NCBI GenBank assembly: GCA_937916515.1 | Contig: CALFSX010000145.1 | Coordinates: 1 to 47,610, forward strand | DNA length: 47,610 nucleotides | Origin: an uncultured Planctomycetaceae bacterium | GTDB lineage: Bacteria > Planctomycetota > Planctomycetia > Planctomycetales > Planctomycetaceae | Direction of reading: 5' to 3' | Part shown: positions 1-7,720 of the stretch, in pieces | Layout of the letters: every line of letters starts with the position of its first letter | Numbering within the stretch: position 1 is the stretch's first letter | Translations under genes and position numbers: made by a program | Notes under the pieces: model-generated | Database searches by the model: none | The model's input: the letters and a program-made list of their open reading frames with translations, nothing else | What the model was told of the DNA's origin: nothing

Positions 1-1
1 A

Positions 2-1888
2 TTTCAGACGCCATTGGCAACAACAAAGAATGGCTTCCCGGACACGCTGCTAGGTGCCACTGACAGCAAAACCCAAACGGCAACCAGCAATCTATCTGGA
101 TTGCCAGTTGATGATTCCGGAATCGACGTCTACATTGTGGGAGCAACATGCGGCGGCACGGCCAGTGGCGCAATTGCAGACATTGGCCTGATGATTCGCA
201 GAATCATCTCAATAAAGAAATTGCAGAACGTTGAAATCCACGGTGTTCTGGTTCACGGAACCGGAGCCATGAGAAACGTCACGGACGTTCAGGAAGCCAA
301 CACAGCCTGCCTGCTGAAGGAACTCAGACACCTTGTCACACCCGGCCTTGGAACTTCTCGAGGTTTCCACAAGTCGCCCGACCTAAGCGGCAAGACACCG
401 TTCGACAACACGTTGTTTATGCATATTGGCAATGGACTGAATGCTCATTCCTTCGCAGCAAAGTCACGGTCAATCGCTAAGTTTCTGTTCAAGGGATCGG
501 CGACTGCTGCACAGTTTGATTTTCGAGAGTGGCGCAATAAGCACGAAGACGAGTTCACAGCAGCCGATCAACTGAGAATGATTGGTGTTGGCACTCAAGA
601 TGCCGAATCGTTTCAGTTTGCAACAGAGCAAAGCTCGCACTTATGTTCCGAACTGCTTCGACAGTGGTGCGATTTTCTCGCGCCCAAAAGCGAATCAGAA
701 TCTGCACAGTTGCCAGCCGAACTTAGTGACAGTGTCACTCTGTTATCCGATTTGCAACTAACAGACGAAACGCTGCCTCAGCAACTGATGACGGTACTTC
801 GAGGCAGCAAAGGCAAAGAAATCGAAGCGTTCGCATCAGAAGTGAATGCTCGCCTTAGTGCGACGATCAACCCTGAAACGATCACACGCGGAGAAGTGAT
901 GGATTTTCTATCGCAACAGCTTTCTGCTGTGTCAAATCCTGATCAAGGTCAAACATCGCTGCATCAGATTATATCCGGCGTTCAGTCATCCCTGGTGGGA
1001 AACACGCGAAACTGCGAACAGGCAATTAAAGATCACCTGAACCGGTTACTTGACATGCCTCACCGCATAGAAGCAGCAGTCGCCGCCGCAGGTTTCATTA
1101 GAGCCACTCTAAAACTCACTTCTCGAGGCTGCACGAACCTGCTTAAGGAAATCGAAGGCACCTTCAGCGAACTTGTACTTGAAGCCGATCCGGACGAACG
1201 CTTCTGTGACACAGGCAATGCATCGGTAGCAATCGCCACGTTCTGTCAACAGTACTGTGTGCTGCTGGCGTACCAAACGATCTATCAGTGTTTCCTGAAT
1301 CACGTTGCTGCCGTCGCGAATGCGACCAACGCTGAAATTGAAAAACTTACCGCGTTGCGAGCCCAACTTCTAACGGCTGCAACGGAACTGGCTCAGGAAG
1401 GCCTGCTTTCGGATTCCGTATCGCAGCAAACGATTGATGCATTCGACAGTCACGTCCGCAGTTCAGCCCCCGAATTTCTGGCACAGTATTCAAAGTCGCA
1501 TCGCAATTCGAAAGAACTGATCCACAAACTCGCCTCGTCTGCGACCCAATATCTCATCGACTCCGAGCAGGACCGGGATGGTATTGTCGCAAATGACACC
1601 ACCAGCTTTCCTGGAAATGCATGGCCCGAAATTACGGGCACTGGCGGGCGACGACGAGTTTTGGGACTTGTGCCTGAAGGAATTGAACGGGAAGTCTGGG
1701 AATCCAAACTGAAATTGGAATTCGGAGACTGCGTCGCCATGAGAAATGTAGCAGACCACGAAATGACCGTTGTCTGCGAAATCGCGGGAGTTCCACTGGA
1801 CGCCCTGTTTGGGTGTCTGACACACGAAAACCCTCACCTTGTAGACGTAGCCAGCAGAATCCACACGCGAACTGACATCGAATGGTAG
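2..1888 (+). CDS. Tubulin-like protein, 5' end cut by window edge
   Basis: The frame is open to the first base, and the first in-frame start-like codon (TTG at 14) leaves too little sequence before the nucleotide-binding loop, so the true start lies outside the window. Around residues 47-53 (counted from that TTG) it has a glycine-rich segment, CGGTASG, flanked by hydrophobic strand VYIVGA and helix AIADIGLMIR. This matches the layout of the FtsZ/tubulin signature loop (GGGTGSG) as seen in large bacterial 'tubulin-like' (Tubulin_2) proteins. The later part is mostly helical and not recognised. Inferred role: GTP-binding, possibly filament-forming protein; GTPase activity is uncertain because the loop reads GGTASG. 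The next gene (79 bp downstream, same strand) encodes a membrane protein that may be a partner. Family assignment moderate, coding status near certain. Confidence 0.75.
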   Translation, partial: FQTPLATTKNGFPDTLLGATDSKTQTATSNLSGLPVDDSGIDVYIVGATCGGTASGAIADIGLMIRRIISIKKLQNVEIHGVLVHGTGAMRNVTDVQEANTACLLKELRHLVTPGLGTSRGFHKSPDLSGKTPFDNTLFMHIGNGLNAHSFAAKSRSIAKFLFKGSATAAQFDFREWRNKHEDEFTAADQLRMIGVGTQDAESFQFATEQSSHLCSELLRQWCDFLAPKSESESAQLPAELSDSVTLLSDLQLTDETLPQQLMTVLRGSKGKEIEAFASEVNARLSATINPETITRGEVMDFLSQQLSAVSNPDQGQTSLHQIISGVQSSLVGNTRNCEQAIKDHLNRLLDMPHRIEAAVAAAGFIRATLKLTSRGCTNLLKEIEGTFSELVLEADPDERFCDTGNASVAIATFCQQYCVLLAYQTIYQCFLNHVAAVANATNAEIEKLTALRAQLLTAATELAQEGLLSDSVSQQTIDAFDSHVRSSAPEFLAQYSKSHRNSKELIHKLASSATQYLIDSEQDRDGIVANDTTSFPGNAWPEITGTGGRRRVLGLVPEGIEREVWESKLKLEFGDCVAMRNVADHEMTVVCEIAGVPLDALFGCLTHENPHLVDVASRIHTRTDIEW

Positions 1889-1967
1889 ACACTCCGGCAA
1901 AAAATGGGGCAACCAGGAAGCTTAGAGAATCGGGAAACATGCGTTTAGTGCCGGTTCCCCAATTTCC

Positions 1968-3638
1968 GTGACCGAGGAAAATGGTCTGGATTTAGAGCGT
2001 TTACGATCTGATCTTGTCCAATTCTGCAGATCACCGATAGAACACCACCTGTCTGATCAAGTTTTCTCCGGCGATCGCAGGCCCATGTGGTGTCCTCATT
2101 GCAATTCTGAAACAACTCCCGTCCCCTCTAAGACGGTCGATGGTTCCTGCTGCGCTTTGTGCGGCGAACGTGTTTTTGGAAGCAAACCAAGCGATCAGTC
2201 GATCCGCCAGGCAAGGGACATAATCGCCAAATGGTCAGCCAGCGATCTGCTGGACCAAATTTCGACTTTACCAGACATCCCGGCGATGCCAGCGCCACAC
2301 ATTCCGGTTACGTCCAGAGTTGAAAAAACAGAACCGAACTTGCCAGAAACGAACATTCAGCCGCCCGCGCCTGCGACTGCATTCGAAGCTCACGAACCTG
2401 CAATGCTTCAGCCCCCACATATGCGGGACAAGCTCAGCAGCGAACTTAACGACAAAGACATACACCGCGAAGACGTTCCCGCCAACGAAATTCATCACGA
2501 AGCAACCGCCGCCGAAGTCGTTTCGCCTGACGCCTTGCGGGAACCTGCCACCAATCCTCAAACAACAGCGATCGGTCCGGAACCACGTAAGAATAGTTCC
2601 CAACCACCGGCACCAAAGATCGTAGTTGCGACTGAACAGCCATCGGAACCAGAAGCCGAACGCCGGCAACCGCAACGACAATCGGAAGTTGAAGTCAGCC
2701 GAACAACATCGGATGCCGCAACGAATTCTTCCAAACAGGTCGTTGCTGAGCGACAAGACACGAACGCAACGAACAAAAACGAGAAGACTTTTGAACGCCC
2801 GGACGACCGGATAGTCTCAGAAGCATCAACTGACGCCACAAAGCCAATCGCTGTCGATTCGTCATACGGACGAAAAGAACAACCACGCCAACCGCTGATG
2901 CGGAAACAACGTGAACGGACGCGCCCTGAGGCCGAACTGAACAAAGGATTGAACACCGTGAACCGCAAGTTTCGTATCGATAGCCCCGGTGGTGCTGACA
3001 ACGAATCTAATCCTCCCGAACAAATGGACGTTGAGTCAGGCAACGAAACCAACGTTGCAGGAGGACGCATCCAAAGCAACTCCTCAAAAACAGGCAAACG
3101 CCACAGAATCGACGACGGACAACCGGTTAGCGAACTACTTGGCACAGGAGACAATCGAGGGCGAACTCACGGACGTCCTCGCCGACGCTACATCGACGAA
3201 GCTCATCCGGCGACCGCTCGGGGCCCGCATTTTCAGGTGACACCGCAGCGGCGTTCCAACTTCACTTCGATGACCGGACAGTTTCTGGCATACCTCGGAG
3301 TGCTCGGGCTGACAATCGGCACCGCCATGGTGATCTACGGTCACTTCGGCGGCTATTCCGATTACACACCAACCGGCTGGCTGGTCACCACGGTCGCTCA
3401 AATGATGCTGTTTCTTGGCGTCATCAACCTGGTTTCAGGCGGCATGGAACAAACCAACGACGAAGTTTCTCAGAGAATCAACACGCTGGGCGAACAGCTG
3501 TTTCGCATCGAACAAGTCACAGAAGAGGTTCTGCGAGGCCCAAAAATCAATCCGCGACGATACGCCAACCCAGACGAAGAATACGAAGATTACGAAGATT
3601 CTCAACGAGAAGTCGCCTCAGTTCGCGACCGCGAATAA
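1968..3638 (+). CDS. Zinc-ribbon, disordered, two-helix membrane protein
   Basis: 556 residues from a GTG start. The nearby ATG at 1939 is in another frame and hits TGA at once, so it cannot be the start. Residues 42-65 hold a Cys-x2-Cys ... Cys-Cys-x2-Cys zinc-ribbon-like cluster (C42, C45, C61/C62, C65). Residues about 100-430 are low-complexity, rich in Pro, Glu, Arg, Thr and Asn, and expected to be disordered. Two hydrophobic helices follow (about 438-460 and 468-490), separated by a short Gly/Tyr-rich turn, then a predicted coiled coil (NTLGEQLFRIEQVTEEVL) and an acidic Glu/Asp/Tyr tail. No enzymatic motif. It follows the tubulin-like gene, so an inferred role is a membrane anchor or adaptor for that protein. 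Function otherwise unknown. Confidence 0.8.
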   Translation: MTEENGLDLERLRSDLVQFCRSPIEHHLSDQVFSGDRRPMWCPHCNSETTPVPSKTVDGSCCALCGERVFGSKPSDQSIRQARDIIAKWSASDLLDQISTLPDIPAMPAPHIPVTSRVEKTEPNLPETNIQPPAPATAFEAHEPAMLQPPHMRDKLSSELNDKDIHREDVPANEIHHEATAAEVVSPDALREPATNPQTTAIGPEPRKNSSQPPAPKIVVATEQPSEPEAERRQPQRQSEVEVSRTTSDAATNSSKQVVAERQDTNATNKNEKTFERPDDRIVSEASTDATKPIAVDSSYGRKEQPRQPLMRKQRERTRPEAELNKGLNTVNRKFRIDSPGGADNESNPPEQMDVESGNETNVAGGRIQSNSSKTGKRHRIDDGQPVSELLGTGDNRGRTHGRPRRRYIDEAHPATARGPHFQVTPQRRSNFTSMTGQFLAYLGVLGLTIGTAMVIYGHFGGYSDYTPTGWLVTTVAQMMLFLGVINLVSGGMEQTNDEVSQRINTLGEQLFRIEQVTEEVLRGPKINPRRYANPDEEYEDYEDSQREVASVRDRE

Positions 3639-4060: not shown

Positions 4061-4077
4061 AAGGGGCGAGGCCCCTT
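4061..4077 (+). promoter_or_regulatory. Leader hairpin before dnaE
   Basis: Perfect inverted repeat AAGGGGC-GAG-GCCCCTT: 7-bp stem with a 3-nt loop. It ends 16 nt before the dnaE ATG and 3 nt before the GGGAG ribosome-binding site. In sequence it closely resembles the terminal hairpin of the R repeats when those are read on the minus strand (AAGGGC-GAA-GCCCTT), so it may be a solo remnant of the same element. A regulatory effect is inferred only from position. Confidence 0.45.
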
Positions 4078-4093
4078 GTTGGGAGCGATCACA

Positions 4094-7000
4094 ATGATCG
4101 ATATAAATACAGACACCAAACCAGTAACATCTCCACGCCCATTTGCACATCTGCATTGCCACACGCATTTCAGCCTGCTGGACGGCGTTAACCGCATTCC
4201 CGAACTGGTAACGCGAGTCAAAAGCCTGGGAATGAATTCCGTCGCCATGACCGACCACGGCAACCTGGGCGGGGCGATGGAATTTTATAACACGTGCAAG
4301 AAACACGAAATCAAGCCGATCATTGGCTACGAAGCTTACGTCGCTCCCGGACGTCGTACAGACCGCAGCGCTACTCGGCAAAAGGAAGCTCAATCGCACC
4401 TGACGTTGCTGGCCATGAATCAAAAGGGCTTCGACAATCTCATCAAGATGTCGTCGACGGCGTACCTGGAAGGCTTCCACTATAAGCCGCGCATCGACCG
4501 CGAACTTCTGGAACATCACAACGAAGGCATCATCTGCCTTTCCGGATGCGCATCCAGCGAACTATCCAAAATGCTGCTCGCCGAAAAAGACGACGAAGCT
4601 CGGCAACTGGTCGAATGGTATTGCCGAGTCTTCGGTGACCGCTTCTATATGGAAATTCAGGATGCCGGATTTGAGATCCAAAAGCAATGCCTGGACCTGA
4701 CGGTAGATCTGGCAAACAAAATGGGACTGCCGCTGGTCGCCACCAACGACGCTCACTACCTGACCCGTGACGACGCGCGCGTGCAGGACGTTTTGTTGTG
4801 CGTGAATACTCGCACAACTCGCGACGACCCGAACCGGATGCGGATGAGCAACGACGGTCTGTTCGTCTGCAGTCCGGAAGAAATGTACGAAACATTTTCC
4901 GGGCTTGAACACGCCGTTGCGATGTCGCAGGAAATCGCCGACCGAGTCGACATCGAAATGCACGATCGCAAGCTGTATCCGGTGTATCGGCCACCAGAAG
5001 GCAAGTCAGATATCGACTTTCTGCGCGACCTGTGCAACGAACGCATGTACGAACGGTACGGCGATGAACTCACAGACGCACACTGGAGTCGCCTGAAGTA
5101 CGAACTTAGCATCATCGAAGACAAGGGCTACGCTAGTTACTTTTTGATCGTCTGGGACTTCGTCGAATTTTCCCGGCGCAACGGAATTCCCTGCGGAGCG
5201 AGAGGTTCCGCTTGCGGTGCGATCGTGGCCTTTCTGCTGCGATTGGGAGACGTTTGCCCGCTGAAATACGACCTGCTGTTCGAACGATTTCTTGACCCCA
5301 GTCGTAACGAGCCGCCGGATATCGATATCGACTTCTGCCGCGATCGACGGCAGATGGTTATCGACTATACCAAACAAACATATGGCGAAATGAACGTCGC
5401 CCAGATCGGTACCTATGGAACACTGAAAGCGAAAAACGCCATTCGTGACGTTGGTCGAGCACTCAACGTGCCTTTGCCTCGCGTCAACGAACTGGCAAAG
5501 ATGATTCCCGAAGAACTGAACATCAAGCTGAAAGATGCTCTGGCAAAAAGCCCCGATCTGAAAGCCGCCTACGACGGCGACCCAGTTGCCAAAGAACTGC
5601 TGGACTACGCGATTTCCGTCGAAGGCCTTGCTCGCAGTATGGGAACTCACGCAGCGGGTGTCGTGGTGGCAGACGTTCCGTTGGACACTGTCGTTCCACT
5701 GCAGAAGATCACCGGCAAGACAGATATCATCACCCAATGGGATGGCCCCACAATCGAATCCATCGGTCTGCTGAAGATGGACTTTCTGGGCCTGCGGAAC
5801 CTCACAATTCTGGATAAGGCGGTTAAGAATGTTCAAAGAAAGCACCCTGAGTTCACGCTGCAGGATGTCCAAAACAACCTGACAGACAAAAAGACGTTCG
5901 CATTGCTTCAACGCGGCGAAACAAAGGGCGTTTTTCAGCTTGAGTCCGGCGGAATGCGCGACCTGCTGACCAAAATGAAGCCCGACTGCTTTGAAGACAT
6001 CATCGCAACATCGGCCTTGTATCGTCCCGGTCCGCTGGAAGGCGGGATGGTGATGGAATATGTCGACGTTAAAAACAAACGCAAGCAACCACGAAAGGTT
6101 CACCCGGTTGTCGATGAGGTCCTAAAAGAAACCTACGGCGTCATGGTTTACCAGGAACAGGTGATGCGGATTCTGAACCGTGTCGGCAACGTCGAACTGG
6201 CAAGTGCGTACAAATGTATTAAGGCGATTAGTAAAAAGAAGCAGTCCATCATCGACAGCTTCCACGGCGAGTACATTGCAGGAGCCGAAAAGAACGGCAT
6301 CTCGACTCAGCTTGCCGACGAACTATGGAACCTGATCGTGGCATTCGCCGGCTACGGTTTCAACAAGTCGCATTCCACCGCCTATGGATTAATCGCTTAC
6401 GAAACAGCCTATCTGAAAGCTCACTATCCCGTCGAATTCATGGCCGCCCTGCTAAGTTGCGGAATGGAAAGCAGCGAACGAATCGCCGAGCACGTTGATG
6501 ATTCACGACGACAGGACATCGCCGTGCTTCCGCCAGATGTGAATACTTCCGAAGTTGAATTCGCCGTTGTAGGCGACAGCATTTCATTCGGCATGGGAGC
6601 CATCAAAGGCGTTGGCGAAGCTGCCCTGGAATCAATGGTGGCCGAACGAAACGCCAACGGTCCATTTAAGGACATTTTTGACCTGACTGAGCGAATCGAT
6701 CCGAAAGCTTTAAACAAGAGTGCGCTTGAAACACTTATCAAAGTTGGCGCGCTCGATAGCCTGCCCGGTAATCGAGCTCAACAATTGGAAGTCGTCGAAA
6801 GAGCCGTTCAATCCGCCGTGTCAAAGGCGAAAGACAAAGCAAGCGGGCAGATGAATCTGTTCGGAGGTGACGATGAAGACGAACTGGACGACAAGGGCCA
6901 GGTACAGATTAACCTGCCGGATGTTCCCGATTGGCCGAAGTCTCAGAAACTCGCCATCGAAAAAGAATGCCTTGGATTCTATCTGACGTCACACCCTTTG

Positions 7001-7720
7001 GCTCAGCACTCAAAACGCATTGAACGTTACGCGCAAACCAAAAACAAGGGCGTCGCCGACATGGACGATGGTGCTCCTGTCACAATTGCGGGCATGGTTG
7101 GAGCCATTAAAATCGCGACGGCGAAAAAAACAAACGCCAACGGGCTCAACAAGTATGCAAACTTCGATCTGGAAGACGCGACAGGAATTCTCAGGTGCAT
7201 TGCATGGCCGTCAGACTACGATCGTTTTAAAGAACTAATCAAAACAGAAAACGTGGTAATCGTTCAGGGCAAGGTCGATCGTCGTGGCCGCGAACCCAAC
7301 ATTGTAGCCAACCGAATCATGACGTTGGATCAGGCCGACAAGGAATTCACTTCTCAAGTGGCCATCAAATTTGATCGCAGCGTGCATTCACTTGATATCG
7401 TCGAAAGCGTTCGCAAAATCTTAAGTCGCTATCCGGGATCGACGGACGTCGTCCTTGTAGTTGACAGCCCAAACGATAACGGTAATCGCCAGTCAACCAA
7501 CGGCGAGGAATCGGCGGAGTCAATGGCCGTTGCTGAATCAGAAAGTGACACAGCAACAGCAACCAACCGGATTCGCTATATTCTGACCACAGGAAAAGAC
7601 TGCCAGGTCAGTGTCGGCCCCGAATTTCAACAAGCACTGAAAGACACAATCGGCGAAGGCTACTACGAACTCAAGGCCGCTGCATCGTCCAACGGTAGTG
7701 GGGGATCCATCGGAAGATAA
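4094..7720 (+). CDS. dnaE: DNA polymerase III subunit alpha
   Basis: Replicative polymerase of the Pol III holoenzyme, 1208 residues (E. coli DnaE has 1160). The start is set at ATG 4094, preceded by GGGAG at 4081-4085; TTG 4076 would add six residues and overlaps the hairpin. The N-terminal PHP domain begins HLHCHTHFSLLDG (H19-H25). The palm carries PDIDIDF with catalytic D409 and D411; the third aspartate is D563 in LLKMDFLG. Residues 919-923, QMNLF, fit the internal beta-clamp-binding motif. An OB-fold follows at about 995-1080 (VTIAGMVGAI ... GILRCIAWP). DnaE1 type, not PolC, as there is no exonuclease insert. All key motifs are intact. Confidence 0.97.
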   Translation: MIDINTDTKPVTSPRPFAHLHCHTHFSLLDGVNRIPELVTRVKSLGMNSVAMTDHGNLGGAMEFYNTCKKHEIKPIIGYEAYVAPGRRTDRSATRQKEAQSHLTLLAMNQKGFDNLIKMSSTAYLEGFHYKPRIDRELLEHHNEGIICLSGCASSELSKMLLAEKDDEARQLVEWYCRVFGDRFYMEIQDAGFEIQKQCLDLTVDLANKMGLPLVATNDAHYLTRDDARVQDVLLCVNTRTTRDDPNRMRMSNDGLFVCSPEEMYETFSGLEHAVAMSQEIADRVDIEMHDRKLYPVYRPPEGKSDIDFLRDLCNERMYERYGDELTDAHWSRLKYELSIIEDKGYASYFLIVWDFVEFSRRNGIPCGARGSACGAIVAFLLRLGDVCPLKYDLLFERFLDPSRNEPPDIDIDFCRDRRQMVIDYTKQTYGEMNVAQIGTYGTLKAKNAIRDVGRALNVPLPRVNELAKMIPEELNIKLKDALAKSPDLKAAYDGDPVAKELLDYAISVEGLARSMGTHAAGVVVADVPLDTVVPLQKITGKTDIITQWDGPTIESIGLLKMDFLGLRNLTILDKAVKNVQRKHPEFTLQDVQNNLTDKKTFALLQRGETKGVFQLESGGMRDLLTKMKPDCFEDIIATSALYRPGPLEGGMVMEYVDVKNKRKQPRKVHPVVDEVLKETYGVMVYQEQVMRILNRVGNVELASAYKCIKAISKKKQSIIDSFHGEYIAGAEKNGISTQLADELWNLIVAFAGYGFNKSHSTAYGLIAYETAYLKAHYPVEFMAALLSCGMESSERIAEHVDDSRRQDIAVLPPDVNTSEVEFAVVGDSISFGMGAIKGVGEAALESMVAERNANGPFKDIFDLTERIDPKALNKSALETLIKVGALDSLPGNRAQQLEVVERAVQSAVSKAKDKASGQMNLFGGDDEDELDDKGQVQINLPDVPDWPKSQKLAIEKECLGFYLTSHPLAQHSKRIERYAQTKNKGVADMDDGAPVTIAGMVGAIKIATAKKTNANGLNKYANFDLEDATGILRCIAWPSDYDRFKELIKTENVVIVQGKVDRRGREPNIVANRIMTLDQADKEFTSQVAIKFDRSVHSLDIVESVRKILSRYPGSTDVVLVVDSPNDNGNRQSTNGEESAESMAVAESESDTATATNRIRYILTTGKDCQVSVGPEFQQALKDTIGEGYYELKAAASSNGSGGSIGR

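Follow-up and report, generated by a model that had tools for sequence, protein, structure and literature searches.

A kinase-tubulin fusion gene split by an insertion sequence in an uncultured planctomycete, and the FHA-EAL and AAA genes that recur beside its relatives

The window analysed here is the whole stretch of 47,610 nucleotides (positions 1 to 47,610, forward strand) of contig CALFSX010000145.1, assembly GCA_937916515.1, from an uncultured Planctomycetaceae bacterium. It opens with a plus-strand open frame (2-1888) that carries the T4 loop GGTASG and a Pfam match to Tubulin_2, followed by a gene for a zinc-ribbon membrane protein. The question raised by the locus was whether the two form a tubulin relative with a dedicated membrane partner in a bacterium lacking FtsZ, as a sequence-only reading had proposed. 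The analysis showed that positions 50-1888 (plus strand) are the 3' remnant of a gene fusing a Ser/Thr kinase to an FtsZ-like 1 (Tubulin_2) domain, identified by Pfam, by an in-frame join and by homologues, and that the fusion gene is split in this assembly by a transposase-type insertion sequence (IS) at CTAG. At kinase-tubulin loci of other bacteria in which no FtsZ was detected, the recurrent neighbours are genes for an FHA-EAL protein and an AAA protein.

The Tubulin_2 match of the 2-1888 frame (E 1.9e-13, 50.9 bits) was limited to profile positions 151-312 of 356. The frame is open and holds GGTASG as first read, but its beginning is not tubulin sequence: bases 1-53 (minus strand) are the end of a high-copy IS, with the terminal inverted repeat CCGGACACGCTG and then the target CTAG at 50-53. 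Copies of this end were found at 23 other places in the 343-contig, 8.33 Mb assembly (a lower bound, with 40 of 98 candidates scored), and each copy whose contig end was viewed lay at that end. The sole other Tubulin_2 match above the cut-off in the genome was on contig C110 (58-426, minus strand), covering profile positions 1-141 with 28.8 bits against a curated cut-off of 27, in a protein kinase domain frame (Pkinase, E 9.8e-32) that continues into Tubulin_2. The N-terminus missing from the window was thus retrieved, and it runs up to the opposite end of this IS: contig C110 terminates in a second repeat, present at at least 33 other places in the genome. In every copy displayed (18 for the first IS end, 8 for the second), the end consists of CCGGACACGCTG and then CTAG. 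G001, a genome of the same genus, has a related IS end (83% identical) next to a gene for a 451-aa DUF772/DDE transposase. Read together, the two flanks suggest that the element, seen by its ends and not whole, inserted at CTAG with duplication of CTAG; target duplications other than CTAG, reasoned by hand from the sequences, did not fit the two flanks. This high-copy IS with CTAG targets fragments the assembly of the genome (G000) as a whole.

Joining the C110 and window flanks through one CTAG gave a single frame of 1082 residues with no stop. From CDH to the next strand the joined protein has 36 residues by hand count, equal to the homologues in G004 and G002, and it was 49-54% identical over about 970-1095 aligned positions to the homologues in G002, G003, G004 and G012, the last of which is cut by its contig. 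The split separates the kinase and loops T1-T3 from the section of the GTP-binding domain that carries T4, and the assembly holds no intact fusion gene. Upstream on C110 are AAA, FHA-EAL and GGDEF genes, as is also the case in G002, G003, G004 and G012, and since the far end of C110 is another such IS end, this signalling operon sits between two copies. At codon 127, the AAA gene that precedes the kinase part (L012:1461-2816, minus strand) has an in-frame stop, which the AAA homologues of the same four genomes lack and which is a second lesion in the same operon as the split fusion gene. Because of the IS split and the in-frame stop, the module in this genome is very probably dead. Signs of decay, which sequencing error could partly mimic, were found in three further genomes of the genus: the G001 fusion is without its first 141 residues, contains several frame changes and has none of the three upstream genes at its locus, the G005 fusion has two frame changes on a 3.1-kb contig, and in G006 the upstream genes run to the contig end with no Tubulin_2 found in the genome.

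The neighbours of the fusions were examined at 80 loci, the best 80 of 96 relatives from a species-genome collection scanned with A2, an alignment of the tubulin part, a set biased towards close relatives of the query. A kinase was present in 78 of the 80 loci, and the remaining two begin at a contig edge. FHA-EAL genes were found at 68 loci, AAA genes at 59 and both at 53. Among the 51 well-flanked loci (at least 4 kb upstream and at least 3 kb downstream, with a stop-to-stop frame search), FHA-EAL was found at 48, AAA at 40, both at 40 and GGDEF at 11; within 3 kb the counts were 47 for FHA-EAL, 39 for AAA and 9 for GGDEF. At 13 zinc-ribbon loci taken as controls, which are shorter (9-14 kb) than most fusion loci (up to about 20 kb), neither FHA-EAL nor AAA was found (0/13 each). 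Three well-flanked loci had neither gene, namely L139 (the G001 remnant), L164 and L195. Besides the fusion itself, the only clusters near more than 15 of the 80 loci were FHA-EAL, AAA and GGDEF; five others occurred at 11-15 loci and, with one member sampled from each, corresponded to a methyltransferase, RecJ, a deoxyhypusine-synthase-like protein, a uracil-DNA glycosylase and one protein without a Pfam match. Pfam confirmed FHA in 60/60 and EAL in 59/60 of the FHA-EAL neighbours scanned, which had been preselected by a home-made FHA-EAL profile. When 58 genomes were compared, the best 12 AAA matches all fell in genomes with a Tubulin_2 hit. Cultured carriers of the module are Lacipirellula limnantheis I41, Adhaeretor mobilis HG15A2 and Botrimarina colliarenosi Pla108. 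That planctomycetes often lack FtsZ, as the sequence-only reading had stated, held in this sample: PF00091 (FtsZ/tubulin) gave no match in 16/16 planctomycete genomes searched, G000 included, and was found in 13/14 controls. The fusion frame at L174:6499-10998 is unusually long, with 1500 aa to the end of the fetched stretch and its tubulin match at about residue 827, and FHA-EAL and AAA paralogues are found elsewhere in G000 (C328:34848-35927, C328:2491-3549 and C166:34263-35522).

Several results weigh against a general and exclusive linkage. GGDEF genes occurred at 11/51 well-flanked loci and at 2/13 controls, with no clear excess, and the GGDEF link is claimed for the closest relatives only. 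Genomes without a fusion commonly have relatives of the AAA and FHA-EAL proteins, and an AAA match at E 1e-20 was present in 53/58 genomes, so that AAA presence alone is uninformative. A plain Tubulin_2 search gave 37 matches, and stretches were fetched for 20 of them (7 on the same contigs as in the 80-locus set); FHA-EAL was found at 11 and AAA at 12 of these 20 loci. Nine of the 20 had no FHA-EAL, among them L055, which is cut by its contig, and L056, which is the G001 remnant. The Tubulin_2 matches outside the 20 were mostly from one family, f3, and in none of the six f3 genomes with Tubulin_2 did FHA-EAL match strongly (best E 4.7e-12). A quick, unrooted tree of 20 proteins, from which the broken L055 and L056 were excluded, placed 12 proteins with the module and 8 without it on either side of one branch (SH-aLRT 99). 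There thus seem to be two groups of kinase-tubulins, with the module confined to one. The second fusion group (L057, L063-L068), on the far side of that branch, has no FHA-EAL or AAA neighbour, and family f3 has three Tubulin_2 matches per genome. Within the family of the window, a Tubulin_2 hit was found in 9/36 genomes. In all genomes with a hit other than G000, the best scores were 70.9-183.9 bits, except for 41 in G001. Given this patchy occurrence and the broken gene here, a general stand-in for FtsZ, which the sequence-only reading had allowed for, is unlikely.

The fold was predicted with AlphaFold on L130, which is the closest of the intact homologues sharing this loop, from an alignment of 56 sequences in which the window piece was included. 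The model of 750 residues had a mean pLDDT of 88.2 and a pTM of 0.79, and its top PDB matches on Foldseek were CetZ2 (E 2.3e-6) and FtsZ chains. With VIA-align 2, the model aligned to CetZ (3zid) with Z 26.6 over 302 residues at 3.8 A and 14% identity. Membership of the tubulin/FtsZ superfamily is thus borne out by both the Pfam match and the model. Against Bacillus subtilis FtsZ (2vxy), 275 residues aligned at 4.0 A, and model positions 9-720 spanned chain positions 11-316 even though the 2vxy chain is only 306 residues long, which places the last part of the FtsZ domain against the strand at model 709-720. The predicted order of elements in L130 is a strand at 307-317, a helix to 340, helices at 348-645 and a strand-helix-strand-strand unit at 672-720. 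From this order and the range aligned to 2vxy, we infer that a helical domain of about 330 residues is inserted in the tubulin C-terminal domain. Mapped from the homologue onto the window, 50-1888 would hold the second half of the GTP-binding domain with GGTASG, the helical insert at about 662-1645, and a C-terminal beta segment with the conserved end HTRTDIEW that is predicted to complete the tubulin fold.

Folded alone, the insert gave a pLDDT of 87.2 and a pTM of 0.84, with no Foldseek match at E 0.001. Its structural matches were of low Z, the best being cohesin at 8.3, with syntaxin and the stalks of MxA and MxB also among them. These low-Z matches probably reflect a common helical arrangement, and none is a convincing known relative. 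A sequence search also gave no solved relative, the matches listed being helical and coiled-coil ones only. The model suggests that the tubulin fold is complete and that its core is finished only after the insert of about 330 residues.

The motifs bear on what activity may be expected. In 78 fusions, the kinase motif HxDxKxxN was found in 75, DFG in 73 and [AV][VIL]K in 70. For the FHA-EAL proteins, 60 of 61 frames were aligned (A5, second frame of L169 excluded); the FHA binding residues R, S and H were present in 59/60 and N in 60/60, and the catalytic EAL residues were present, of 60, as E 53, N 45, E 52, D 50, D 45, K 51 and E 44. By their residues most FHA-EAL copies look active and some do not. 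The alignment of the fusions (A4) held 55 of 70 long fusions together with the window, the others being near-copies, cut, or with odd domain starts. The T4 loop here, CGGTASG, is a relaxed form of the GGGTG(S/T)G type, and its variable fourth position in the 56 sequences was G in 47, A in 4, S in 4 and C in 1; GGTASG also occurs in an intact relative. The sequence-only reading had singled out GGTASG against GGTGSG, and the letters were read correctly, but with A, S or C in 9/56 sequences the change is recurrent drift and is ruled out as a unique feature. Three points of this kind count against the mechanism proposed below: catalytic residues are lost in some FHA-EAL copies, GG(D/E)(D/E)F is absent in 10/18 GGDEF hits by regular expression, and NxDxxD/E, the catalytic T7 motif of FtsZ, is not conserved after the H7 helix in the 56 sequences. 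Because the T7 motif is not conserved, GTP hydrolysis by the tubulin-like part appears doubtful.

The best explanation, which we regard as an even bet, is that the window holds a broken kinase-Tubulin_2 fusion whose intact relatives would act as a tubulin scaffold coupled to phosphorylation and cyclic di-GMP (c-di-GMP). The mechanism is drawn from domains and neighbourhood. In intact relatives, the tubulin-like part would bind GTP and, by way of its complete, insert-split core, form a filament or cluster in the cytoplasm where the N-terminal Ser/Thr kinases are concentrated. With its FHA domain, the FHA-EAL protein would recognise phosphothreonines made by the kinases, and it would lower c-di-GMP locally or, in degenerate copies, sense it; the neighbouring GGDEF cyclase, where present, would oppose it, and the AAA protein would remodel the assembly. 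The output would be a polarity or lifestyle switch controlled by phosphorylation and c-di-GMP, and not division.

The zinc-ribbon gene, around which the proposal of a membrane-shaping system in place of FtsZ was built, lies next on the plus strand as a GTG frame at 1968-3638. Its product shows the features described earlier: a ribbon of the CxxC...CxxC type, an extended region of low complexity, a pair of hydrophobic helices and a tail resembling a coiled coil (helices and tail judged by eye). It gave no Pfam match up to E 1. The proposal draws on the adjacency of the two frames on one strand, on the two helices and a family-conserved tail, and on the absence of detected FtsZ from the 16 planctomycete genomes. 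Homologues, however, start at MWCPHC, which corresponds to ATG 2085, and from this likely start the gap to the tubulin-like gene, itself split here, is about 196 bp. Conserved adjacency was absent: in G002, G003 and G012 the zinc-ribbon homologue lies well inside a contig other than that of the fusion, and about 1.28 Mb separates the two genes in G004, a genome in a single contig. The zinc-ribbon profile matched at 0/80 tubulin loci of the species-genome collection and at 0/20 loci of the plain Tubulin_2 search, and no Tubulin_2, FHA-EAL or AAA gene was found at 13 loci of zinc-ribbon homologues, two of which had a GGDEF gene. Homologues were present in 23/39 genomes searched (23/24 of the same family and 0/15 of other families), including 15/16 same-family genomes without a Tubulin_2 hit, and no match was found in the 9 of 15 other-family genomes in which Tubulin_2 is present. 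The zinc-ribbon protein is a neighbour by position, widespread in the family on its own, and that it is the dedicated membrane partner of the tubulin relative is extremely improbable. The C-terminal region of the protein is strongly conserved in the family around YTPTGW and RIEQ (L112-L124). The next gene, at 4076-7720 on the plus strand, encodes DNA polymerase III alpha (DnaE; Pfam DNA_pol3_alpha, PHP and finger) and is unrelated; a DnaE counterpart was not matched at the 13 zinc-ribbon loci.

Membranes might still be involved in another way, if the membrane or vesicle remodelling proposed in 2010 for the whole FtsZ-like 1 family applies and the kinase fusion is one regulated form of that machinery. 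The case made in the main argument of PMC2875224, as far as the passages covered go, is gene context with vWA, GTPase and OmpA-like proteins, and a weak Foldseek match of the whole model to BDLP, a dynamin-like protein (E 3.7e-3, probability 0.44), and the MxA/MxB stalks among the matches of the insert point the same way. The loci speak otherwise: FHA-EAL, AAA and GGDEF alone accompany the fusion at more than 15 of 80, the five sampled clusters of 11-15 loci look housekeeping or lack a Pfam match, and helical matches at Z 6-8 may reflect a common arrangement alone, so we hold this reading to be unlikely. A little more weight, still well on the doubtful side, goes to a phosphorylation and c-di-GMP scaffold in which the tubulin-like part is a non-polymerising GTP switch or docking platform. 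The composition of the module (kinase, FHA and EAL, plus GGDEF in the closest relatives) and the unconserved T7 motif would suit it, but the prediction is of a complete tubulin core with its C-terminal sheet, which a pure switch would not need. As for the break itself, the split is known from the 343-contig assembly alone, IS ends sit at contig edges, where assemblers break, and the coding sequence is otherwise unbroken over 1082 codons; an IS end from elsewhere could then have been placed at the contig edge of a gene that is whole in the organism. Such an artefact is very unlikely, as both pieces enter opposite ends of the same element exactly at CTAG, a one-CTAG join restores frame and length, the AAA gene beside it carries an in-frame stop of its own, and in G001 the locus is degraded.

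The split gene and its relatives belong with known proteins. The FtsZ-like 1 family (FtsZl1, PF13809) with four planctomycete kinase fusions was described by Makarova and Koonin in 2010 (PMC2875224, from the passages covered), and the proteins here share with these the same Tubulin_2 domain scoring above the cut-off, the T4 loop type (here in a relaxed form), a Ser/Thr kinase at the N-terminus of the same protein and the long coiled-coil and mostly helical part that follows the FtsZ-like GTP-binding domain (helices at L130 348-645). They differ in that the copy in this genome is broken by the IS. The neighbours stressed in that paper, as covered, are vWA, GTPase and OmpA-like proteins, whereas the relatives here have FHA-EAL and AAA; no vWA, divergent GTPase or OmpA-like protein was among the clusters at 11 or more of the 80 loci, one member of each being sampled. 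T6-H7 and the C-terminal domain of FtsZl1 could not be placed there, while the L130 model suggests that both exist with the insert between them. In the reviewer exchange of the same paper, a diguanylate (c-di-GMP) phosphodiesterase was pointed out beside an FtsZl1 gene in Pirellula staleyi; the authors discounted neighbours of this sort because they occurred in no more than one or a few closely related organisms. EAL, FHA and GGDEF had no occurrence as whole words in its main text, and its Additional Files may list the linkage. Kinase fusion in planctomycetes was also noted in the covered part of PMC9871819, and in that of PMC11032199 a tubulin-like domain was the commonest among domains exclusive to cytoplasmic kinases of its set.

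Among solved structures, the closest fold to the modelled tubulin part is archaeal CetZ, from which the kinase-tubulin differs by the low identity, by its kinase and insert and by the unconserved T7 motif. With FtsZ it shares the GTP-binding core with loops T1 and T4, and FtsZ chains also match the model, but it is not a PF00091 hit, is patchy in the family and shows no indication of a division role. The tubulin- and GTPase-centred conflict systems with vWA and HSP70 in the covered passages of PMC7159879 likewise combine a tubulin-family protein with regulatory partners, whereas the recurrent partners here are FHA-EAL and AAA. Membership of an anti-phage defence system was rejected, the PADLOC matches shown being to kinase-containing models and to the P-loop stretch of the AAA protein, and an NCBIfam assignment was also rejected, with only weak matches far below the cut-off. 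The passages covered of PMC10936438 and PMC7159879 do not describe the FHA-EAL/AAA module, and no description of the linkage or of the split fold was found in the open-licence PMC literature searched.

Taken alone, the window locus is modest, since its gene is a broken copy from a family already known. Planctomycete fusions of a kinase to a tubulin have been on record since 2010, and none of the literature covered assigns them a tested role. The surprising part lies in the relatives, with a recurrent kinase-tubulin/FHA-EAL/AAA module and an apparently complete tubulin core. The linkage, with FHA-EAL at 48/51 and AAA at 40/51 well-flanked loci, is wider than the few-organism neighbour cases that PMC2875224, in the passages covered, set aside, and for the T6-H7 and C-terminal elements that these passages left open the model favours presence, split by the insert. 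For planctomycetes without FtsZ this opens a tentative view, possible though on balance improbable, that the kinase-tubulin, the FHA-EAL phosphodiesterase and the AAA protein may form one conserved machine, a polymerising tubulin with its own kinase that would be wired through phosphothreonine to c-di-GMP turnover and whose core would be completed across a helical insert.

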